DNA from: Oceanicella actignis
Lineage (GTDB): Bacteria; Pseudomonadota; Alphaproteobacteria; Rhodobacterales; Rhodobacteraceae
Reading direction: 5' to 3'
Length of the DNA: 64,000 nucleotides
Assembly: GCF_008124525.1 (NCBI RefSeq)
Contig: NZ_VNHJ01000002.1
Location: 1 to 64,000, forward strand
Position 1 is the first letter of the stretch; each line of letters begins with the position of its first letter. Shown here in pieces: positions 31,046-41,307 of the stretch. Under the pieces are notes generated by a model. It had not been told where the DNA came from. It saw only the letters and a program-made list of their open reading frames with translations, and ran no database searches. The position numbers were made by a program, and so were the translations under genes.

Positions 31046-31519
31046 TCAGCGGTTCAGCTGCCAGAAGGCGCCGTTCAGGACCGCGGCGAAGCTCACCCAA
31101 CCAAGATAGGGCAGCAGCAGCAGCGCGGCGATGCGATCGACCCGCCAGGCGAGCGCCGCAAGCAGGGCGATCGAGACCAGCAGGCAAAGGATCACGGCGA
31201 ACGCGCCGCGCAGATCATGTGCGCCGAAGAAGACGGGCGTCCACAGGGCGTTGAGCACCATCTGCAACGCCCACAGCCCGATGCAGGCGGCGACCGTCGC
31301 GCCGCCGCCCGACGCAAGCGCCAGGCGCGTTCCCGCCGCGGCGATCATCAGGTAAAGCACGGTCCACACGGGGCCGAACACCCAGGCCGGCGGGCGGAAG
31401 GACGGCGCGGCAAGGCCTTGATACCACGCTCCGCCCACGTCGAAGAACGCTCCCGAGGCCGCCGCCGCGAATGCGGCCGCGAAGAAGGGCAGGGCGACGA
31501 GCAGGGTCGTCATGTTCAT
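31046..31519 (-). CDS. tspO: TspO/MBR-family tryptophan-rich sensory protein
   Basis: Five-helix membrane protein that binds porphyrins; in Rhodobacter it modulates tetrapyrrole export and photosynthesis gene expression in response to oxygen. 157 residues. Typical motifs: PSFRPPAWVFGPVWTVLYLM (39-58), ALWTPVFFGAHDL (91-103), LPYLGWVSFAAVLNGAFWQLN at the C-terminus. Its ATG overlaps the stop of phrB (ATGA), so it is the last gene of rpoE-chrR-phrB-tspO and should be induced with them. Confidence 0.93.
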   Translation of the reverse strand: MNMTTLLVALPFFAAAFAAAASGAFFDVGGAWYQGLAAPSFRPPAWVFGPVWTVLYLMIAAAGTRLALASGGGATVAACIGLWALQMVLNALWTPVFFGAHDLRGAFAVILCLLVSIALLAALAWRVDRIAALLLLPYLGWVSFAAVLNGAFWQLNR

Positions 31520-32979
31520 GGAGCTTCTCCTTGCGCTTGCGCATCGCGCTCTTCGGCCGCCGCCCTGGCGCCAAGGGCGCGATGCGCGTCCAGCGCCCGC
31601 TGGCGCGAAGCGGCCAGATCGACCAGCGGGCGCGGGTAGTCCCGCCCCAGCCGCAGCCCCGCCTGCGCCAGGACTTCGGCGGGGGCGGACCATGGCGCGC
31701 CCAGCCAACGGTCGGGCAGGCGCGCAAGCTCGGGGACGAAGCGGCGGATGTAGTCGCCTTGCGGGTCGAACTTCGCCGCCTGGGCGGCGGGGTTGAAGAC
31801 GCGGAAATAGGGCGCGGCGTCGGCGCCCGATCCGGCCACCCATTGCCAGCTTGCCAGGTTCGAGGCGGGGCTGTGATCGACGAGGCAGTCGGCGAACCAG
31901 CGCGCGCCCGCGCGCCAGTCGATCAGCAGGTTCTTGGTCAGGAACGAGGCGACCACCATGCGCACGCGGTTGTGCATGTATCCCGTTTGCCACAGCTCGC
32001 GCATGCCCGCGTCGACCAGCGGAACGCCCGTGCGCCCGCGCCGCCATGCCTCCAGCCCCTCGGGGTCGTCGCGCCAGGGCATGGCGGCGAATTCGGGCCG
32101 CAGCGGCGCGTGCGCCAGCTTCGGGAAGTGGAACAGCAGATGGGCGCTGAACTCGCGCCAGCCAAGCTCGGCGCGAAAGCTGGCCACGTCCTCGGGCGGG
32201 CCCGCCGCCTCGACCGCGTGCCAGACCTGGTTGGGCGAGAGCTGGCCATGCGCCAGATACGGCGACAGGCGCGAGGTCCGCCCCAGCGCCGGGAAATCGC
32301 GCCCCTTGGCGTAGCCGGCCAGGCGCTCCTGCACGAAGCCTTGCAGCGCGTCGTGCGCGGCGTCCTCGCCGATGCGCCAGAGGCGCCCCAGCCTGGCCTG
32401 CCATGGCGCCTCGTCGGGGGCGGCGAGGCCCGGCTCGTCGGGCGCGCGCGGCACAAGGTCGAGACGCGGCGCGGGCAGCGGCCGACGCGGCGGCGCCGCG
32501 CCCAGACAGCCGCGCCGGTAGAAGGGCGTGAAGACGCGATAGGGCGCGCCGTCGGGCTTGAGCGTTTCCCACGGTTCCCAAAGCAAGGCGCCGTTGGCGC
32601 TGCGCGCCTGCAGCCCGGCGCCGGCAAGCGCGGCCTTGACGGCCGTGTCGCGCGCGATCGTCCAGGGCTCGTAGGCGCGGGTCCAGGTGATCAGGCTTGC
32701 GCCATGGCGCGCGGCCAGGGCCCGCAGCGCCTCGGCTGGGTCGCCGCGCAGCGCCCGCAGCGTTCCGCCCAGCGCGCGGTCGAGCGCGGCCAGCGCGCGC
32801 CCGCGCCACCAGGCGAAGGCGGCGCCGGCGGGGTGCGCGGCCTCGAGCGCGGGATCTTCGATCGCCACCGGGATCACGCGCCCATGCGCCGCCGCCGCCG
32901 CAAGCGCGGGGTTGTCGGACAGGCGCAGATCGTTGCGGAACCAGTGGATCGCGACCGGGGCGGAAGAAGCGGCGCCCAT
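31516..32979 (-). CDS. phrB: Deoxyribodipyrimidine photolyase (class I cryptochrome/photolyase)
   Basis: Light-driven repair of pyrimidine dimers using FADH-. 487 residues: N-terminal antenna-binding Rossmann domain (IHWFRNDLRLSDNPALAAA) and C-terminal FAD domain with GRTSRLSPYLAHGQLSPNQVW, GYMHNRVRMVVASFLTKNLL and DHSPASNLASWQWVAGSGAD, where the conserved Asn, Arg and Trp residues are intact. It begins 1 base after the chrR stop and overlaps tspO. In Rhodobacter sphaeroides a photolyase gene belongs to the RpoE regulon; here it is in the rpoE operon itself. Confidence 0.95.
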   Translation of the reverse strand: MGAASSAPVAIHWFRNDLRLSDNPALAAAAAHGRVIPVAIEDPALEAAHPAGAAFAWWRGRALAALDRALGGTLRALRGDPAEALRALAARHGASLITWTRAYEPWTIARDTAVKAALAGAGLQARSANGALLWEPWETLKPDGAPYRVFTPFYRRGCLGAAPPRRPLPAPRLDLVPRAPDEPGLAAPDEAPWQARLGRLWRIGEDAAHDALQGFVQERLAGYAKGRDFPALGRTSRLSPYLAHGQLSPNQVWHAVEAAGPPEDVASFRAELGWREFSAHLLFHFPKLAHAPLRPEFAAMPWRDDPEGLEAWRRGRTGVPLVDAGMRELWQTGYMHNRVRMVVASFLTKNLLIDWRAGARWFADCLVDHSPASNLASWQWVAGSGADAAPYFRVFNPAAQAAKFDPQGDYIRRFVPELARLPDRWLGAPWSAPAEVLAQAGLRLGRDYPRPLVDLAASRQRALDAHRALGARAAAEERDAQAQGEAP

Positions 32980-32980
32980 G

Positions 32981-33622
32981 TCAGATGCGGAAGATCGGCT
33001 GCAGCGCCCGCGGGATCAGGCCGCGAAAGCGCAAGGGGGCGTCGGTGGCGGCGAGGCAGATGCAGGGCGCGCCCTCGTCGGCGACGGGCGTGTGCTCGAG
33101 GCTCTCGTCGGCATATTCGACGTCGCCGACGCCAAAGCGCCCCGTCTCGTCATGGAAGGCGCCTTGCAGGACCAGCGTCAGCTCGCGCCCCTTGTGGCCA
33201 TGATCGGGCACGGCCCGGCCCGGCGGGATGTAGAGAAGCCGCAAAGAGCCGTCCGGCCCGGCATGCAGCATGGCCTGCCGGATGCCCGCGCCCATGCTGC
33301 GCCATCGCGGCGGGCGTCCTCCCAGCGCCGCCATCACCGGCCCGGGGTAGATGCCCGAGGGCCGCGGCGGCTCGGGCGGCGCGGCGGCCGGATCGTCGAG
33401 GCGGGCCATGACGCGGGCCATCAGCTCGTCCGACACGGGTTCGGGGGGCAGGGTCTCGAGCACGGCGCCGCCCGCCGCCTCGTGCGCGGCCAGCCGGGCG
33501 CGGCATTCGTCGCACAGCGAGACATGCGCCGCCGTCGCGACCGAAAACGCATGCCCCAGGCGGCCCGCGGCGTAGTCCGCCAGCATCGGCTCGGGGATAT
33601 GGTGCGTGACGTCGTGGGTCAT
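32981..33622 (-). CDS. chrR: Anti-sigma factor ChrR
   Basis: Zinc-dependent anti-sigma factor that holds RpoE until singlet oxygen triggers release. 213 residues, the length of Rhodobacter ChrR. The N-terminal anti-sigma domain has the ZAS motif His33-x3-Cys37-x2-Cys40 (HVSLCDEC) with a further His at 7 or 8. The C-terminal cupin domain has His141, His143, Glu147 (HGHKGRE) and His177, the same four zinc ligands at the same numbers as known for R. sphaeroides ChrR. Start overlaps the rpoE stop (ATGA). Confidence 0.95.
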   Translation of the reverse strand: MTHDVTHHIPEPMLADYAAGRLGHAFSVATAAHVSLCDECRARLAAHEAAGGAVLETLPPEPVSDELMARVMARLDDPAAAPPEPPRPSGIYPGPVMAALGGRPPRWRSMGAGIRQAMLHAGPDGSLRLLYIPPGRAVPDHGHKGRELTLVLQGAFHDETGRFGVGDVEYADESLEHTPVADEGAPCICLAATDAPLRFRGLIPRALQPIFRI

Positions 33623-34182
33623 GGGCGGCGAAGGTCCTTGAGTTCGTGGCGCAGGCGCGTCAGCGCCAGGCGGATGCGCGACTTGATGGTGCCCAGCGGC
33701 AGGCCGGTGACGGCGGCGATCTCGCCATGGGACAGCTCGCCCAGATAGGCGCGCTCGATCATCTCGCGCTGGGCCGGCGGCAGCGCGCCAAGCGCGTCGC
33801 GCAGGCGCCGGGTCTCTTGATCCAGTGCCAGCGCGTCGGCCGCGTCGGGGTCGTGCGCGAGCTCTTCGGCCAGCTCGTCGGGAACGGGACGCCCCTCGCG
33901 GCGGAACATGTCGATCTGCCGGTTGCGGGCGATGCGATAGATCCAGGCCGAGGCGCTGGCGCGTGCGGGGTCGAACTGGGCGGCCTTGCGCCAGACGGCC
34001 AGCATCGCCTCCTGCACCACCTCTTCGGCCTGGGCGTTGGCCATGCCGCCGCGCCGCAGCATGGCCTTGAGCCGGGGCGCGTAATGCGCGAACAGCGCCG
34101 CGAAGGCCTGGCGGTCGCGCCGGTCGCGCACCGCGATCAGAAGCCGCGTCTGCTCGCTGAGCGCATCGCCCGTTTCGCTCAT
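33619..34182 (-). CDS. rpoE: ECF sigma factor RpoE (singlet-oxygen response)
   Basis: Group IV sigma factor, 187 residues from ATG 34182 (MSETGDALSEQTRLLIAVRD), which has AGGA at normal distance; the frame is open further upstream but without family similarity. Region 2 spans about 20-95 (DRQAFAALFAHYAPRLKAML, SASAWIYRIARNRQIDMFRR). Region 4 spans about 130-180 (LPPAQREMIERAYLGELSHGEIAA, GTIKSRIRLALTRLRHEL; each given in part). Paired with chrR downstream, as in the Rhodobacter singlet-oxygen system. A sigma-E-like promoter lies upstream, indicating autoregulation. Confidence 0.95.
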   Translation of the reverse strand: MSETGDALSEQTRLLIAVRDRRDRQAFAALFAHYAPRLKAMLRRGGMANAQAEEVVQEAMLAVWRKAAQFDPARASASAWIYRIARNRQIDMFRREGRPVPDELAEELAHDPDAADALALDQETRRLRDALGALPPAQREMIERAYLGELSHGEIAAVTGLPLGTIKSRIRLALTRLRHELKDLRRP

Positions 34183-34354: not shown

Positions 34355-34384
34355 CCTTTACGCGGCGCCGGGCGGGGCGGATCA
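34355..34384 (-). promoter_or_regulatory. Sigma-E-type promoter of rpoE-chrR-phrB-tspO
   Basis: On the minus strand TGATCC (34384-34379) is followed by exactly 18 bases and TAAAGG (34360-34355). The -35 box agrees with the TGATC-type -35 of Rhodobacter RpoE promoters, and the -10 is of the expected TA-rich kind. It points into rpoE about 170 bases ahead. It implies that RpoE drives its own operon. Confidence 0.75.
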
Positions 34385-34421: not shown

Positions 34422-34451
34422 TGATCCGACAGCGGTCTTCATGCGTATGTT
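34422..34451 (+). promoter_or_regulatory. Sigma-E-type promoter of the rightward lipid-response operon
   Basis: TGATCC (34422-34427), an 18-base spacer, then TATGTT (34446-34451), 28 bases before the ATG of the FAD oxidoreductase gene. The -35 and spacing are identical to the divergent rpoE promoter; the two -35 boxes are 37 bases apart, back to back. Confidence 0.75.
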
Positions 34452-34478: not shown

Positions 34479-35789
34479 ATGGCATTCGATTTGCGGCCCT
34501 CGGCCCCGCGGCGCATCGCGATCATCGGGGGCGGGGTGACGGGGCTTTACGCCGCGCGGCTTCTGGCGCCGGGGCGCCATGTCACGCTGTTCGAGGCCGC
34601 GCCCCGCCTTGGCGGACATGCGCGCACCGTCGCCGCGGGCCGACGCGGCGACAGGCCGGTGGATACGGGCTTCATCGTCTTCAACCACGCCAACTACCCG
34701 CATCTGGGCCGGCTGTTCGACGAGCTGGACGTGCCCCTGCTCAGGACCGACATGAGCTTCGGCGCCTCGCTCGAGGGCGGCGCGATCGAATACGGGCTGC
34801 GCAATCCCGGCGCCGTCTTCGCGCAGCCGTCCAATGCGCTGCGCCCGGCGTTCTGGGGCATGATCCGCGACGTCCTGCGCTTCAACCGCCTGGCGCCGGC
34901 CGCCGCCCGCGACGACATGACCCTGGCCGAGCTGTCGGCGCGCCTTGGCCTCGGGCGCTGGTTCGAGCGCCACTACCTGCGGCCCATGTGCGCCGCGATC
35001 TGGTCCACGCCCGCCGCGCAAATCGGCGCGTTTCCGGCGCGGCGGATGGTGCGCTTCTTTCTCAATCACGGGCTGATGTCGGTCTCGGGCCAGCACCAGT
35101 GGTGGACGGTCGCGGGCGGGTCGATCTCTTACGTCGAGCGCCTGGCCGCCGATCTGCGCCGCCGCGGGGTCGATCTGCGCATCGGCGCGCCGGTCGCGGC
35201 GGTCCTGCGCGGCGAGGGGGGCGTGCGCGTGCGCGCCGCGGGGGCCGAGCCCGAGCGCTTCGACGAGGTGGTCTTCGCCTGCCACGCCGACGTGGCGCTG
35301 CGCCTTCTGGCCGATGCCGCGCCCGAAGAGCGCGCGGCGCTGTCCGCCGTCCGTTTTCAGGACAACCGCGCCGTGCTGCACGCGGACGCCGCGCTGATGC
35401 CGCGGCGGCGCAAGGCATGGTCGGCGTGGAACTATGTGTCGGGCCGCGGCGGCGGCGACGCGGGCGTGGGGGTGACCTACTGGATGAATCGCCTCCAGAG
35501 CATCCCCGAGGACGATCCGCTGTTCGTCACGCTGAACCCGCCCGCCTCGCTGCGCGACGAGCTGATCCAGGACGAGACGACCTTTCGCCACCCGGTCTTC
35601 GACCACGGGGCCATCGCGGCGCAAGAGCGCATCGCCGCCATGCAGGGCGCGCGCGGCGCATGGTTCGCCGGCGCCTGGCTGCGCCACGGCTTTCACGAGG
35701 ATGGCTGCGCGACCGCGGCCCGCGTCGCGCGCGCCATCGCGGCCAGGGCCGAGCGCGGCGCGGATGCGCGCACGGGGGCGACGGCATGA
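34479..35789 (+). CDS. FAD-dependent amine-oxidase-like protein; candidate fatty acid desaturase UfaD
   Basis: Flavoprotein of 436 residues of the NAD(P)/FAD amine-oxidase type (COG2907-like). The dinucleotide-binding start is IAIIGGGVTGLYAARLL (13-29), followed by LFEAAPRLGGHARTV and DTGFIVFNHANYPHL. Near the C-terminus GAWFAGAWLRHGFHEDG is the FAD-closing motif. The equivalent first gene of the Rhodobacter RpoE-dependent locus beside rpoE is of this family, and furan fatty acid synthesis there uses a flavin-type desaturase (UfaD) on methylated phospholipid acyl chains. Assigning that step here is inference. GGAG lies 9-10 bases before the ATG. First gene of an eight-gene operon. Confidence 0.85.
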   Translation: MAFDLRPSAPRRIAIIGGGVTGLYAARLLAPGRHVTLFEAAPRLGGHARTVAAGRRGDRPVDTGFIVFNHANYPHLGRLFDELDVPLLRTDMSFGASLEGGAIEYGLRNPGAVFAQPSNALRPAFWGMIRDVLRFNRLAPAAARDDMTLAELSARLGLGRWFERHYLRPMCAAIWSTPAAQIGAFPARRMVRFFLNHGLMSVSGQHQWWTVAGGSISYVERLAADLRRRGVDLRIGAPVAAVLRGEGGVRVRAAGAEPERFDEVVFACHADVALRLLADAAPEERAALSAVRFQDNRAVLHADAALMPRRRKAWSAWNYVSGRGGGDAGVGVTYWMNRLQSIPEDDPLFVTLNPPASLRDELIQDETTFRHPVFDHGAIAAQERIAAMQGARGAWFAGAWLRHGFHEDGCATAARVARAIAARAERGADARTGATA

Positions 35790-36586
35790 TCGCGCGCGCC
35801 TCGGGAAACGCCCCGCCCAACGCCCCGCCCGCGCGCCTGCCCCTGCGCCTTGCGGGCGCGACGACCCATCTGCGGCGGGGTTCGGCTCGCCACAGGCTGA
35901 CCCATCGGGCCGAGATGGTGCTGATCGATCCCGAGTCGCCCACGCCCCCGCCCTTTCCCCTGCGGCGCAACCGCTTCGGCCTGCTTTCGGTGTCCGATCG
36001 CGACCATGGCGGCCCGCCCGGGCGCGGGCGCGGCGCGGCATGGGCGCGCCAGACCCTCGAGGCGCGCGGCGTGACGGCCGACCGGCTGGCCCTTCTGACC
36101 ACGCCGCGATTCCTGTGGTGGGGGTTCAACCCCGTCAGCTTCTGGCTGGCGTGGCGGGACGAGGCGCTGGTCGCGGTCATCGCCGAGGTGACCAACACCT
36201 GGGGTCAGCGCCACGCCTATGTCTGCCGCCATGAGGACGGCCGCCCGATAACCCCGGACGACAGGCTGACCGCGGCCAAGATCTTTCACGTCTCGCCCTT
36301 TCAGGACGTGGCGGGCGACTACGCCTTCCGCTTCGACTTTGACTTCGGCGCGCGCGCGCTCGACATCCGCATCGTGCACCGGAACGGGCCCGAGGGCGTG
36401 GCCGCCAGCCTGGCGGGGCCGCTCATGCCGCTGGGCCGCCGCGCGCTGGCGGGCATGATGCTGCGCCATCCCTTCGGGCCGCTGCGCACGCTGGCCCTGA
36501 TCCACTGGCACGCGCTGCGCCTTGCCCTCAAGGGCGCGCGCTGGCGCGAGCGCCCCGCGCCCCCCGCTTCGGAGACCAGCCCATGA
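35786..36586 (+). CDS. DUF1365 protein; candidate furan fatty acid oxygenation factor
   Basis: 266 residues of the DUF1365 family. Visible family blocks are NRFGLLSVSDRDHG, TTPRFLWWGFNPVSFWLAW, EVTNTWGQRHAYVC and KIFHVSPFQDVAGDYAFRF. Enzymatic function is not proven for most members. Such genes almost always travel with the FAD oxidoreductase and the cyclopropane-synthase-like methyltransferase found on each side here. In the Rhodobacter furan fatty acid pathway an O2-dependent step is assigned to UfaO, which may be this family; that link is from memory and uncertain. Start overlaps the previous stop (ATGA). Confidence 0.85.
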   Translation: MIARASGNAPPNAPPARLPLRLAGATTHLRRGSARHRLTHRAEMVLIDPESPTPPPFPLRRNRFGLLSVSDRDHGGPPGRGRGAAWARQTLEARGVTADRLALLTTPRFLWWGFNPVSFWLAWRDEALVAVIAEVTNTWGQRHAYVCRHEDGRPITPDDRLTAAKIFHVSPFQDVAGDYAFRFDFDFGARALDIRIVHRNGPEGVAASLAGPLMPLGRRALAGMMLRHPFGPLRTLALIHWHALRLALKGARWRERPAPPASETSP

Positions 36587-37755
36587 CCGCCCCTCTCGTC
36601 CGCCTCGCGCCCGCGCCGCGCGCCCGCCGGCCTGGCCCAAACGCGCGCTCGGCCTTTCTCGACGCCTGCGCGGCGATCGCGCACGGCAGCCTGCGGCTGA
36701 CCACCCCCGAGGGCGCCGTGCGCCATTTCGGCGATGGCGCGCCGCAGGCCGAGCTCATCCTGCACGACTGGGCCGCCCTGGCCACCGCGCGCGATCGCGG
36801 CGAGGCCGGTTGGGCCGCGGCCTATGCCGCGGGCCTGTGGGACAGCCCCGACATCGAGGCCGTCTGCGCGCTGGCGCTGCGCAACCCGCGCGCGCCGTTC
36901 GGCTTGGACGCGCCCCGGCCCGCGGCGCGGCTGGCGGCGACGGCGGCGCGCGCGCTTGGGGCCGAGCCCCGCGCCGATGGCGGGCCGCTGATGCTTGTCC
37001 GGCCCGAGCTGGGCGCCGAGTTCTACCGCCAGTGGCTGGACGAGGGCATGCATTGCTCCGCGGCGCTTTTCGCGCGCGAGGGCGATTCGCTCGAGCGCGC
37101 GCAGCTTGCCAAATGCGACCGGATCCTGGATCTGCTCGGCCCCGCGCCGGGCGCGTTGCTCGAGCTCGGCTGCGGCTGGGGCGGCTTTGCCGAGCGCGCC
37201 GCCGAGCGCGGCCACCGGGTCACGGGCATCGCCGCCACGCCCAACCACAAGGCCTATGCCGACGCGCGCCTCGACGGCCGCGCCGAGATCCGCCTGCAGG
37301 GCGACCGCGAGGACCGGGTGCAATACGACGCCATCGTCGCGATCGAGTCCATCGGCGCCGTCGGCGCGCGCCGGCGGCCCGCCTGGTTCAAGAGCCTTGC
37401 CGCGCGCCTCAAGCCCGGTGGGCGGGCGGTGGTGCAGGCCGTCGTCACGCCCGACGAGGCGGCCGAAGCCGGGCCGGGCGCATTTCCCGGCGCCCTCGCC
37501 CCGCGCGAGGCGGCGATCGCGGCCGAGGCGCGGCGGGCCGGATTGACCGTGGCCGGGCGCCTGGCCTTCGGCGAGCACCATGCGCGCACCCTGCGCGCCT
37601 GGGATGAACGGATGCAGGCCCGTGCCGGGCGGCTGGCGCAATACGGCTTTGACGCCGCGACGCTGCGGCGCTGGCGCTATCGTCTGAACGCCGGCGCCGC
37701 GGCCTTCGCCGCCGGGCGGGTCGATGTGGTTCAGCTGGCGCTCGAACATGGCTGA
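36583..37755 (+). CDS. Cyclopropane-fatty-acid-synthase-like SAM methyltransferase; candidate UfaM
   Basis: SAM-dependent methyltransferase of 390 residues acting probably on unsaturated acyl chains of phospholipids. The SAM-binding motif ELGCGWGGF is at 194-202. The segment FYRQWLDEGMHCSAALFA (148-165) corresponds to the substrate/bicarbonate region of cyclopropane synthases, but the classical YSCxYF reads CSAALF and the preceding HYDLGN-type motif is absent. That fits a methylating rather than ring-forming enzyme. Rhodobacter uses such an enzyme (UfaM) to make 11-methyl-octadecenoate, the furan fatty acid precursor. Overlaps both neighbours. Confidence 0.85.
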   Translation: MTAPLVRLAPAPRARRPGPNARSAFLDACAAIAHGSLRLTTPEGAVRHFGDGAPQAELILHDWAALATARDRGEAGWAAAYAAGLWDSPDIEAVCALALRNPRAPFGLDAPRPAARLAATAARALGAEPRADGGPLMLVRPELGAEFYRQWLDEGMHCSAALFAREGDSLERAQLAKCDRILDLLGPAPGALLELGCGWGGFAERAAERGHRVTGIAATPNHKAYADARLDGRAEIRLQGDREDRVQYDAIVAIESIGAVGARRRPAWFKSLAARLKPGGRAVVQAVVTPDEAAEAGPGAFPGALAPREAAIAAEARRAGLTVAGRLAFGEHHARTLRAWDERMQARAGRLAQYGFDAATLRRWRYRLNAGAAAFAAGRVDVVQLALEHG

Positions 37756-38995
37756 GTCCGCGCCCCTTGCCGGCGCGCCGGAGGGCGCGCGTTGGCGCAT
37801 GGCGCTGACGGCGGGTCTGCTGGCCTCGGCGGGGCTGCCGCTCTATGTGCATCTGCCGCGCTTCGTCGCCGCGCTGGATCTGCCGCTGGCCGCGGCGGGC
37901 GGGCTGCTGCTGGCGCTGCGCGCGCTTGATTTCGCGCAGGACCCGCTGCTTGGCCGCCTTGTGGACCGGATGCGCGCGCGCGCCGGGTTGCTGGCGGCGC
38001 TGGCGCTGGGCGGCCTTGGCGCCGGCTTCGCCGTCGTGTTCGCCGCGCAGCCCGGGATATGGGCGCTGACGGGCGGGCTTGCGCTTTTGTTCACCGCCTA
38101 CAGCCTGGGCATGATCCTGCTTTACGCGGCGTCGGTCGATCTGGCGGCCAGTTCCGAGGCCGGACCGCATCTGAACCTTGCCGCCTGGCGCGAAAGCGGC
38201 GCGCTGGCGGGCGTGCTGCTGGCCGCGGTCCTGCCGGCGGCGCTGACGGCGGCGGTGGGGCCGCGCGCGGGCTACGCCGCCTTCGGACTGCTCATGGCCG
38301 GGGCGGCGCTGGCGGTGTGGCTGGCGAGCCGTCCGCTCTGGCGCGCGCTGGCCCCGCGCCGCGCCCCGGCCTTCGCGCTGCGCCCGCTTTTCGCCGCGGG
38401 CGGGGGCTGGCTGCTGGCGCTGGCTCTGGCGAACGCGCTGCCGGTGGCGATCACGGCGACGCTGTTCCTGTTCTTCGTCGAGGATCACCTCAGGCTCGGC
38501 GCGCTGGCGGGGCCGTATCTGGCGGCCTTCTTTCTCGCCGCCGCAATGGCCGCGCCCGGCTGGGCGGCGCTGGCGCGGCGTCTTGGAACCCGGCCGGTGC
38601 TGGCGGCAGCCATGGCGCTGGCCGTCGCGGCCTTCGCCTGGGCCGCCCTGCTGCCGGCCGGGGCGGCCTGGGCCTTTGCGGCGATCACGGTGGGCTCGGG
38701 CGCGGCGGTGGGGGCCGAGCTGGTGCTGCTGCCGGCGCTGTTCGCGGCGCTTCTTGCGCGCCATGGCCTGCCGCAGGGCGTGGCCTTCGGCCTGTGGTCG
38801 CTGGCCGGAAAGCTGGCGCTGGCCATCGCCGCCGCCGTGGCGCTGCCGGCGCTGGCGCTGACGGGGTATGTCCCCGGCGCCCCGCCCGGGCCGGAGGCGG
38901 CGCGCGCCCTTGTGCTGGGCTACGCCGTCCTTCCCTGCATTCTGAAGCTGCTTGCGCTGGGCCTTCTGCTGGCGCTGCCACGAAAGGTGTTCTGA
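37748..38995 (+). CDS. MFS transporter (GPH/MelB-like)
   Basis: Twelve-helix major facilitator of 415 residues. Start at ATG 37748 overlaps the previous stop by 8 bases. The cytoplasmic loop motif FAQDPLLGRLVDRMRAR (about 66-82) is the GPH-family form of the MFS loop 2-3 signature. Substrate unknown; in this context a lipid, lysolipid or oxidised fatty acid cargo is possible but is only inference. The equivalent Rhodobacter RpoE-regulated locus also carries a transporter of this type. Confidence 0.85.
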   Translation: MAESAPLAGAPEGARWRMALTAGLLASAGLPLYVHLPRFVAALDLPLAAAGGLLLALRALDFAQDPLLGRLVDRMRARAGLLAALALGGLGAGFAVVFAAQPGIWALTGGLALLFTAYSLGMILLYAASVDLAASSEAGPHLNLAAWRESGALAGVLLAAVLPAALTAAVGPRAGYAAFGLLMAGAALAVWLASRPLWRALAPRRAPAFALRPLFAAGGGWLLALALANALPVAITATLFLFFVEDHLRLGALAGPYLAAFFLAAAMAAPGWAALARRLGTRPVLAAAMALAVAAFAWAALLPAGAAWAFAAITVGSGAAVGAELVLLPALFAALLARHGLPQGVAFGLWSLAGKLALAIAAAVALPALALTGYVPGAPPGPEAARALVLGYAVLPCILKLLALGLLLALPRKVF

Positions 38996-39558
38996 TGCTC
39001 AAGCTCCTTGCCGCGCTGTTCGTCGTTCTTGCGCTGGCGCTGGCGATCCAGCGCCACTTCTTCAGCTTCGGGGCGCAGTCTCCGGCGCGCTACGCCGGCT
39101 CGGAGCCCGCCTTCGATCTGAGCCGGCATCTGGGCGGCGACATGATCTCGGAGGGCGTCATCTTCGGCCCCGCCGGCGCCGTGGTCAGCCGCTTCACCGC
39201 CCGGATGCGCGGCGTCTGGTCGGGCGCCGAGGGCCGGCTTTCGGAAAGCTTCCGCTATGCCTCGGGCGAGGAGCAGGAGCGCGAATGGACCATCGTCCGG
39301 GGCGAGAACGGCCGCTTCTCGGCGACGGCGCCCGACATCGTAGGCGTCGCGCGCGGTCAGGTTTCGGGCGCGGCCGCGCGCCTGACCTACAGGCTGCGCC
39401 TGCCGCAATCCTCGGGCGGGCATGTGCTGAGCGTGGTGGACTGGATGTATCTGACCCCGGACGGCGTCATCATCAACCGCTCCGAGATGCGCAAGTTCGG
39501 CGTCAAGGTGGCCGAGCTGATCGCCACCATCCGCCCGGCCGGGACGGATGCGCGATGA
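38995..39558 (+). CDS. DUF3833 family protein
   Basis: 187 residues. An N-terminal hydrophobic helix (LKLLAALFVVLALALAI, about 2-18) anchors or exports the protein. No lipobox Cys is present, unlike many DUF3833 members annotated as lipoproteins. The body contains SRHLGGDMISEGVIFGPAG, REWTIVRGENGRFSATAPD and SVVDWMYLTPDGVIINRSEM, typical of the family and suggestive of a beta-rich lipid-binding fold. Function unknown. Overlaps MFS (TGATG) and SDR (ATGA). Confidence 0.85.
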   Translation: MLKLLAALFVVLALALAIQRHFFSFGAQSPARYAGSEPAFDLSRHLGGDMISEGVIFGPAGAVVSRFTARMRGVWSGAEGRLSESFRYASGEEQEREWTIVRGENGRFSATAPDIVGVARGQVSGAAARLTYRLRLPQSSGGHVLSVVDWMYLTPDGVIINRSEMRKFGVKVAELIATIRPAGTDAR

Positions 39559-40331
39559 GCGCCGTCGCGGGGCTGCGCTGGTGGATCGTCGGGGCCAGCT
39601 CGGGCCTTGGGCGCGCGCTGGCGCTCGAGATGGCGCGCGCGGGCGCCGAGGTGATCGCCTCGGCCCGCAGCGCCGACGCGCTTGCGGCGCTGGCGGGCGA
39701 GGATGCGCGCATCGCGCCGCTGCCGCTTGACGTGACCGATCCGCGCTCGGTCGCCGAGGCGGCGGCGCGGATCGGCGCGCCCGACGGCGTGATCTACGCC
39801 GCCGGCGCCTATGAACCCATGCGCGCGCAGGACTGGCGTTTGGGCGTGGCCGAGGCGGTGGCCGAGGTCAACTTCATCGGCGCGCTGACCGTCCTGTCGC
39901 ATGTCGTGCCGGGCATGGCCGAACGCGGGGCGGGGCGGGTGGTTCTGATCGGCTCGCTGGCGGGCTTTCGCGGTCTGCCCGGCGCGATCGGCTACGGCGC
40001 CTCGAAGGCCGCGCTGATGCATCTGGCCGAGAACCTGCGCGCCGATCTTGCCGGCTCGGGCGTGACGGTGCAGCAGGTCAATCCGGGCTTCATCCGCACC
40101 CGGCTGACCGCCAGGAACGATTTCCACATGCCGCAGATCATGACGCCCGAAGAGGCCGCGCGCCGCACGCTGGCGGCGATCCGCTCGGGGCGTTTCTCGA
40201 CCAGCTTTCCCGCGCCCTTCGCCTGGCTGTTCACGCTGGGCCGCTTCGCGCCGCTGCCGCTGTTCCACGCCCTGTTCGGCGGCGGCGCGAAGGCGTCGGG
40301 GCGCGCCGACAGGAAGGAGAAGAAGGGATGA
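39555..40331 (+). CDS. Short-chain dehydrogenase/reductase
   Basis: NAD(P)-dependent oxidoreductase of 258 residues. Nucleotide-binding GASSGLGRALALEMARAG (13-30), catalytic Ser in VVLIGSLAGFRG, and active site YGASKAALM (Tyr and Lys). NPGFIRTRLT follows. The C-terminal tail is hydrophobic, then basic (GRADRKEKKG), suggesting membrane association. A role in reducing lipid-derived aldehydes or ketones would suit the operon, but the substrate is unproven. Overlaps both neighbours by ATGA. Confidence 0.9.
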   Translation: MSAVAGLRWWIVGASSGLGRALALEMARAGAEVIASARSADALAALAGEDARIAPLPLDVTDPRSVAEAAARIGAPDGVIYAAGAYEPMRAQDWRLGVAEAVAEVNFIGALTVLSHVVPGMAERGAGRVVLIGSLAGFRGLPGAIGYGASKAALMHLAENLRADLAGSGVTVQQVNPGFIRTRLTARNDFHMPQIMTPEEAARRTLAAIRSGRFSTSFPAPFAWLFTLGRFAPLPLFHALFGGGAKASGRADRKEKKG

Positions 40332-40885
40332 TCCGCCGCCGAGACATCTTCCGCCTGGCCGCCGGCGCCGGCGCGCTGGCGCTTGCGCCGGGGGCCGCGC
40401 GCGCCGCCAGCGCCTGGGATTTCGTCTTCGAGGCCCTCGAGGGCGGGCCGATGCCCCTTGCGCAGTGGCGCGGCAAGGTGCTGCTCGTGGTCAACACCGC
40501 GTCCTTTTGCGGCTTCACGCCCCAGTATCGCGCGCTTGTCCGCATCTGGCGCGAATATCGCGACCGGGGCCTGGTCGTGATCGGCGCGCCCTCGACGGAT
40601 TTCCGGCAGGAATACGCCGAGAAGGACAAGATCAAGGCGTTCTGCGAGCTCACCTATGGCGTCGATTTTCCCATGACGGCGCCGGTGCATGTGGTGGGGC
40701 CGGACGCGCACCCCTTCTTCGCCTGGGCCGCGGCCGAGACCGGCGAGCGCGTGCGCTGGAACTTCAACAAGTATCTGATCGGCCGCGACGGTCGCGTCAT
40801 CGCCTGGATGCCCAGCACGCTCGACCCCGCCGCGCGCAAGGCCCGCGAGGCGATCGAGGCGGCGTTGGCCGCGCCCGAGGCATGA
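40328..40885 (+). CDS. Exported glutathione-peroxidase family protein
   Basis: Thiol peroxidase of 185 residues, with a twin-arginine-like signal (RRRDIFRLAAGAGALALAPG, cleavage near ARAAS), so it is probably periplasmic. Active-site Cys61 lies in NTASFCGFTPQY, and Trp144 and Asn145 in RWNFNKYL. The usual NQFGxQEPG block reads STDFRQEYAEKD, keeping a Gln at 94. Most bacterial members use thioredoxin rather than glutathione. As part of the RpoE-controlled run it should reduce lipid hydroperoxides outside the cytoplasm. Start overlaps SDR. Confidence 0.9.
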   Translation: MIRRRDIFRLAAGAGALALAPGAARAASAWDFVFEALEGGPMPLAQWRGKVLLVVNTASFCGFTPQYRALVRIWREYRDRGLVVIGAPSTDFRQEYAEKDKIKAFCELTYGVDFPMTAPVHVVGPDAHPFFAWAAAETGERVRWNFNKYLIGRDGRVIAWMPSTLDPAARKAREAIEAALAAPEA

Positions 40886-41307
40886 GCCCCGCGCGCGCGG
40901 CGGCGCTTCTTGGCGCGGCGGGGCTGGTTCCCTTCTGGGGATTCGCGCTGGCCGCGCATGTGGCCGCCGCAAGCCCGGCCGCGGGGACGGCGCTTCGGGC
41001 CGAGCTGGCCTGGGGCGCGACGATCCTGGCCTTCATGGCCGGCGCCCGCTGGGCCATGGCGCTGGCGGCCGGGGCCGGCGGCGCGCGGCTGGCGGCCTTT
41101 GCGCTGGCCAGCCTGCCGGCCTTCGGCGCGCCGTTCATGCCGGCGCCGGCCGGCCTTGGGCTGCTAGCCGCGGCCTTCGTCGCGCTGCTGGCGGTCGAGC
41201 TTGCCCCTGCAAGCCGGGCCGAGGCGCCGCCCTGGTATCCGGCGCTGCGCATCCGGCTGACATCGGGGGTTCTGGCGGCGCTGGGCGTCGCGGCGCTTGC
41301 CGCGTGA
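40882..41307 (+). CDS. DUF3429 family membrane protein
   Basis: 141 residues with four hydrophobic helices. The N-terminal AALLGAAGLVPFWGFALAA and the GATILAFMAGARWAMAL segment are the DUF3429 hallmarks. Function unknown. Overlaps the peroxidase stop (ATGA) and ends the eight-gene operon, which places it in the oxidative lipid response by context only. Confidence 0.82.
   Translation: MSPARAAALLGAAGLVPFWGFALAAHVAAASPAAGTALRAELAWGATILAFMAGARWAMALAAGAGGARLAAFALASLPAFGAPFMPAPAGLGLLAAAFVALLAVELAPASRAEAPPWYPALRIRLTSGVLAALGVAALAA

Follow-up and report, generated by a model that had tools for sequence, protein, structure and literature searches.

Organization of the operon and its promoters

The window analysed here, the first 64,000 nucleotides of contig NZ_VNHJ01000002.1 of Oceanicella actignis (assembly GCF_008124525.1), carries at 34479-41307 an operon of eight plus-strand open reading frames (ORFs), which is the furan-fatty-acid locus linked to RpoE-ChrR in alphaproteobacteria (Rhodobacterales); its activities, regulation and lipid products are attributed by homology. 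Each of the seven junctions is an overlap (of 4, 4, 8, 1, 4, 4 and 4 bp), and a Pfam search assigned the products, in order, to Amino_oxidase/NAD_binding_8, DUF1365, CMAS, MFS_2, DUF3833, adh_short, GSHPx and DUF3429 (Table 1). In Rhodobacter sphaeroides, RSP1091 is UfaD, the DUF1365 protein RSP1090 is UfaO and RSP2144 is UfaM (PMC7380195; regulon table in PMC7074977). The window operon is headed by a conserved flavin adenine dinucleotide (FAD)-dependent enzyme of the amine-oxidase type, and adjoining it is a DUF1365 protein, the only copy in the genome, with its conserved columns kept, indicating that these are homologues of UfaD and UfaO, respectively. An NCBIfam search of the window proteins matched no UfaM, UfaD or UfaO model, and comparison of the DUF1365 protein with solved structures found no relative.

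Between rpoE and the operon lie two exact TGATCC-N16-CGTA sites in divergent orientation, one facing the operon and the other facing rpoE, a motif closely similar to that of Shewanella RpoE2 (PMC4336711). For the window, shuffled sequence gives an expectation of 0.03 such sites; the whole 3.28-Mb genome has six, with none for the backward control, and exact sites were present at 54 of the 58 related loci examined. NCBIfam searches (for ChrR, TIGR02451 with a cut-off of 124.5 bits) confirmed the rpoE and chrR genes, as did alignments to the solved R. sphaeroides complex, in which ChrR aligned over its full length, so that both the adjacent ChrR-type rpoE-chrR pair and the promoter motif expected of an RpoE-ChrR (ECF11)-linked Ufa operon were found. 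An earlier reading made from the letters alone (the sequence-only reading) had described eight overlapping genes of these families behind a sigma-E-like promoter and beside rpoE-chrR, which the ORFs, overlaps, Pfam matches, exact promoter pair and above-cut-off ChrR score confirm; its proposal of a furan-fatty-acid locus linked to RpoE is likewise right, and the locus has intact homologues of UfaD and UfaO and an exported peroxidase.

Table 1 Features of the furan-fatty-acid locus and its divergent flank in the window
Feature	Position	Strand	Evidence or remark
TspO/MBR family protein	31046..31519	-	PF03073; 4 bp overlap with photolyase gene
DNA photolyase downstream of chrR	31516..32979	-	PF03441, PF00875
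chrR, zinc anti-sigma factor	32981..33622	-	TIGR02451, 201.5 bits; aligns with 2z2s chain B
rpoE, ECF11 sigma factor	33619..34182	-	likely start 34182; ORF open to 34350
Divergent RpoE-type promoter of rpoE-chrR	34359..34384	-	exact motif match
RpoE (ECF11)-type promoter of operon, TGATCC-N16-CGTA	34422..34447	+	exact motif match
UfaD homologue, FAD-dependent amine-oxidase-type enzyme, 436 aa	34479..35789	+	PF01593, PF13450; position as RSP1091
UfaO homologue, DUF1365, 266 aa	35786..36586	+	PF07103, 197 bits
Degenerate operon-type methyltransferase, CMAS fold, 390 aa	36583..37755	+	CMAS, 152 bits; SAM motif kept; catalytic and substrate residues lost
GPH-type MFS transporter, RSP1089 counterpart	37748..38995	+	PF13347
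DUF3833, predicted membrane-anchored beta barrel, RSP1088 counterpart by position and length	38995..39558	+	PF12915
Short-chain dehydrogenase (SDR), RSP1087 counterpart	39555..40331	+	PF00106
Exported GPx-family peroxidase	40328..40885	+	PF00255; twin-arginine-like N-terminus by eye
DUF3429 small hydrophobic (probably membrane) protein, last gene	40882..41307	+	PF11911

Residue loss and fast evolution of the operon methyltransferase

The product of the third gene was aligned with eight other operon methylase copies, and the columns invariant in those copies were scored. It was altered at 40/118 such columns, whereas the same test on each other copy gave 1-5 changed of about 80, and its neighbours in the window were changed at 4/119 (UfaD, all conservative), 0/45 (UfaO) and 1/47 (SDR). 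Among the losses are the HYDxGN motif (now RPELGA), Tyr158 and the YRRxxD loop, and the positions of Glu239 and Tyr317 in Escherichia coli cyclopropane fatty acid (CFA) synthase are occupied by Gly258 and His333. In the E. coli enzyme Glu239, His266 and Tyr317 hold a catalytic bicarbonate, and in CFA synthases such ligands have a catalytic role (PMC11387697); the position of His266 is Gln throughout this methylase family. The window copy thus has the CMAS family membership and the S-adenosylmethionine (SAM) motif of an active UfaM without its bicarbonate and substrate residues. Because the residues for the catalytic bicarbonate and the substrate pocket are lost, the operon methylase is, as judged from its sequence, most likely not an active UfaM.

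The same gene also evolves fast. In the tree the window methylase is sister to that of a related locus, L002 (RFJD01000577.1); the end branches of the two measure 1.27 and 0.25, respectively, and the composition of the window copy is flagged as deviant. Relative-rate tests against L002 with five outgroups showed acceleration on the window side for the methylase (p 4.7e-6 to 4e-9), whereas no acceleration on that side was detected for UfaD, UfaO, the MFS transporter or DUF3833, and the SDR was nominal with one of the five outgroups (p 0.029). A rough count of the ratio of nonsynonymous to synonymous substitution rates (dN/dS) against L002 put the methylase at about 0.52 and the remaining genes at 0.23-0.35. 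We considered and rejected the possibility that the methylase gene contains a frameshift or an assembly error, on the grounds of a single-frame alignment, stops in the other frames, typical codon-position composition and losses that are mostly substitutions.

We consider it quite improbable that the operon copy is nevertheless an active UfaM and the eight-gene cistron a self-contained furan path with clean-up enzymes, as the sequence-only reading had proposed. In its favour, the ORF is open with normal codon-position composition, the SAM motif is kept, and the AlphaFold model predicts a CFA-synthase fold (TM scores against the E. coli and Lactobacillus enzymes are about 0.74; confidence is low at residues 107-141 and 298-304); relatives also carry intact copies at the equivalent operon position, where the Rhodopseudomonas palustris methylase is active (PMC7380195). 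Against it stand the loss of both bicarbonate-ligand equivalents, of HYDxGN and of YRRxxD, the number of invariant columns changed, the restriction of the acceleration to the methylase gene and the presence of an intact alternative elsewhere in the genome. The missing catalytic residues of the operon methylase, together with an evolutionary rate far above that of the neighbouring genes, make it improbable that the cistron is self-contained.

Counted by segments that were picked after seeing the data, the column losses were uneven, at 0/11 in the SAM motif (P 0.008), 10/16 in the substrate segments, 11/15 in the catalytic segments and 4/23 in the C-terminal part. This pattern, the predicted intact fold and the kept reading frame speak for a retained, selected pseudoenzyme that would bind SAM and lipid without methylating cis-vaccenate, and would assist UfaD/UfaO, signalling or ChrR turnover in the role of an accessory subunit or a sensor, having arisen independently in at least two Rhodobacterales lineages with an intact methylase elsewhere. 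Such a role appears unlikely to us, as the segments were chosen post hoc, the GC-rich genome holds frames open without selection, the frame could be kept by nothing more than translational coupling to the MFS gene, and the rough dN/dS is raised.

A second degenerate operon methylase, phylogenetically separate from that of the window, was observed in genome G001 (locus L125, C1:1084066-1085184), with 17/78 columns changed and the HYD motif lost; G001 also keeps the other methylase, intact.

An intact second methylase and a probable split of the pathway between two loci

An intact second methylase lies in the same genome as the window, on contig C9 at 96499-97728. It retains the Glu239- and Tyr317-equivalent and HYDxGN residues and belongs to a photolyase-linked clade (support 100/100) whose other members come from 14 loci, 13 of which have a photolyase gene alongside. 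Because this pairing matches that of RSP2143, the photolyase PhrA (PMC7380195, PMC7074977), with RSP2144, we equate the clade, by synteny, with R. sphaeroides UfaM. An intact methylase of either the operon or the photolyase-linked clade was found in 51/51 sampled genomes with DUF1365 and in 3/10 without it (Fisher p 3e-7, uncorrected for shared ancestry). Where the operon copy is degenerate, in two genomes, the other methylase has been kept in both, a number (n=2) too small for a statistical test.

On this basis we favour, as fairly probable, a pathway split over two loci, in which the operon provides UfaD and UfaO beside a non-active methylase and step one comes from the C9 methylase; the operon anatomy, promoter motifs, residue losses, second gene and phylogeny behind it were observed directly. 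Singlet oxygen or lipid peroxides would release RpoE from ChrR, and RpoE would then fire the two divergent TGATCC-N16-CGTA promoters, yielding UfaD and UfaO together with the accessory MFS transporter, DUF3833, SDR, peroxidase and DUF3429 proteins. The C9 methylase would carry out step one, methylation of cis-vaccenate to 11Me-12t-18:1, which UfaD would desaturate to a diene before UfaO closed the furan ring in an O2-dependent step. The operon methyltransferase would remain as a pseudoenzyme, leaving the pathway split as in R. sphaeroides.

Several observations weigh against this arrangement. The SAM motif of the window methylase is wholly kept, which could mean residual or altered activity. 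The assignment of the C9 clade to R. sphaeroides UfaM rests on synteny, and in this genome the C9 methylase itself has neither a photolyase neighbour nor an RpoE site; matches with two mismatches occur at chance level (12 against 9.1 expected), none of them upstream on the strand of the gene. Because it lacks both, the C9 methylase may be expressed independently of RpoE and not be induced together with the operon. Finally, the association between DUF1365 and an intact methylase in the 51 genomes ignores shared ancestry.

The absence of an RpoE site and a photolyase neighbour at the C9 methylase would also fit a situation in which no furan fatty acid is made, the operon methylase having decayed as the route was being lost and UfaD and UfaO serving another purpose. 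This is highly improbable, given that UfaD and UfaO show no relaxed constraint and that every sampled genome with DUF1365 has an intact methylase.

Accessory genes of the operon

The sequence-only reading had suggested that the MFS, DUF3833 and SDR proteins may complete or export the product. Deletion of RSP1089, RSP1088 or RSP1087 leaves the fatty acid profile of R. sphaeroides unaltered (PMC7380195), and because these genes are dispensable for furan synthesis, their window counterparts need not complete the path. The structural model of DUF3833 has an N-terminal membrane helix and a ten-stranded barrel (pLDDT 92) that resembles nitrobindin and fatty-acid-binding-like proteins, with a weak match to calycin-type barrels (TM score about 0.58), and this predicted barrel would suit lipid binding. 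The peroxidase has the peroxidatic and resolving cysteines C61 and C106 as well as W144 and N145, with Asp at the usual catalytic Gln position; from these residues, removal of peroxide by the exported enzyme is plausible.

Survey of related loci

We surveyed 56 named loci that carry a close relative of DUF1365, and 61 genomes sampled from the order. Nearly all of the 56 named loci are divergent from rpoE-chrR and headed by the FAD gene and DUF1365. The methylase lies within the cluster at 6 of them, three of which (L002, L003 and L037) have the full order UfaD, UfaO, methylase, MFS, DUF3833 and SDR. Among the 61 genomes the methylase is within the cluster in 16, the order UfaD-UfaO-methylase being present in 12 of these. 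Consolidation of the path in one cluster, which the sequence-only reading had proposed for the window, is not new: it is found in those 16 genomes and had already been published for R. palustris (RPA2571-2569; PMC7380195) and Halomonas (PMC12089945).

L092 and L093 likewise have a peroxidase as the last gene of the operon, in the order UfaD, UfaO, methylase, MFS, SDR, membrane protein and GPx. Among 121 genomes, DUF3429 lies inside the Ufa operon in the window only. RpoE control of DUF3429 in other genomes was not supported, with a site in 1 of 30 flanks.

Two further observations were made in these loci. A membrane protein with no Pfam match recurs directly after the SDR (L006:12645-13361, L057:12646-13347, L092:5607-6302 and L093:11215-11847), the copies being 55-67% identical. 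The contig of L002 is titled as a Verrucomicrobia metagenome-assembled genome, yet its entire locus is the closest relative of the Rhodobacterales window locus, and the contig is probably mislabelled or mis-binned.

Divergent genes and other RpoE-type sites

On the minus strand, rpoE, chrR, the photolyase gene and tspO form a divergent run (31046-34182) almost as compact as the operon, and L002 has a photolyase gene and a 65% identical tspO at the equivalent place. The genome has four further exact RpoE-type sites, one of which (C5:190006-190031, minus strand, within the locus C5:188506-191531) lies upstream of a gene for an exported fasciclin-domain protein, which overlaps a short ORF for a photolyase N-terminal domain; the fasciclin-domain gene is a possible further RpoE target.

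Relation to known furan-fatty-acid loci

In its arrangement the window operon varies a locus that is already known and is no new system, the sole new point being a degenerate operon methylase together with an intact second copy, in two lineages. Where a methylase gene is clustered with ufaD and ufaO, it is easy to assume a complete pathway. The window locus indicates that such a methylase can be degenerate in its catalytic residues, with the route kept open by another copy elsewhere, so that gene order alone overpredicts self-contained pathways. A testable rule follows from the survey, namely that wherever DUF1365 was present in the sample, the genome had also kept an intact methylase at one or other of two places.

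The window shares with RSP1091-1087 of R. sphaeroides the order UfaD, UfaO, GPH-type MFS transporter, a protein of RSP1088 size and SDR, upstream of rpoE-chrR. The methylase for step one is at a separate locus there (phrA-ufaM, RSP2143-2144), as the sequence-only reading had correctly stated (PMC7380195, PMC7074977) and as we favour here. Unlike R. sphaeroides, the window has a degenerate methylase gene after ufaO, a peroxidase and DUF3429 after the SDR and a photolyase gene after chrR, and its second methylase has neither a photolyase neighbour nor an RpoE site.

The window has its ufaD, ufaO and methylase genes clustered, as has R. palustris, where RPA2571, 2570 and 2569 are UfaD, UfaO and UfaM and are necessary and sufficient (PMC7380195), and as has Halomonas sp. 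YLGW01, whose three ufa genes are consecutive (PMC12089945). The methylases of both have been shown to be active, whereas the window copy lacks the catalytic residues. The Rhodobacterales-type loci L002, L003 and L037 resemble the window in their complete UfaD-to-SDR order, divergent rpoE-chrR and promoter motif, and differ from it in methylases that retain the conserved residues and in having no peroxidase or DUF3429 after the SDR. GPx-family peroxidases are also known under RpoE2 control in Shewanella oneidensis (PgpD; PMC4336711) and beside rpoE-chrR in R. capsulatus (BsaA1; PMC7074977); these lie in an operon of their own, whereas the window peroxidase gene overlaps the SDR gene inside the Ufa operon.

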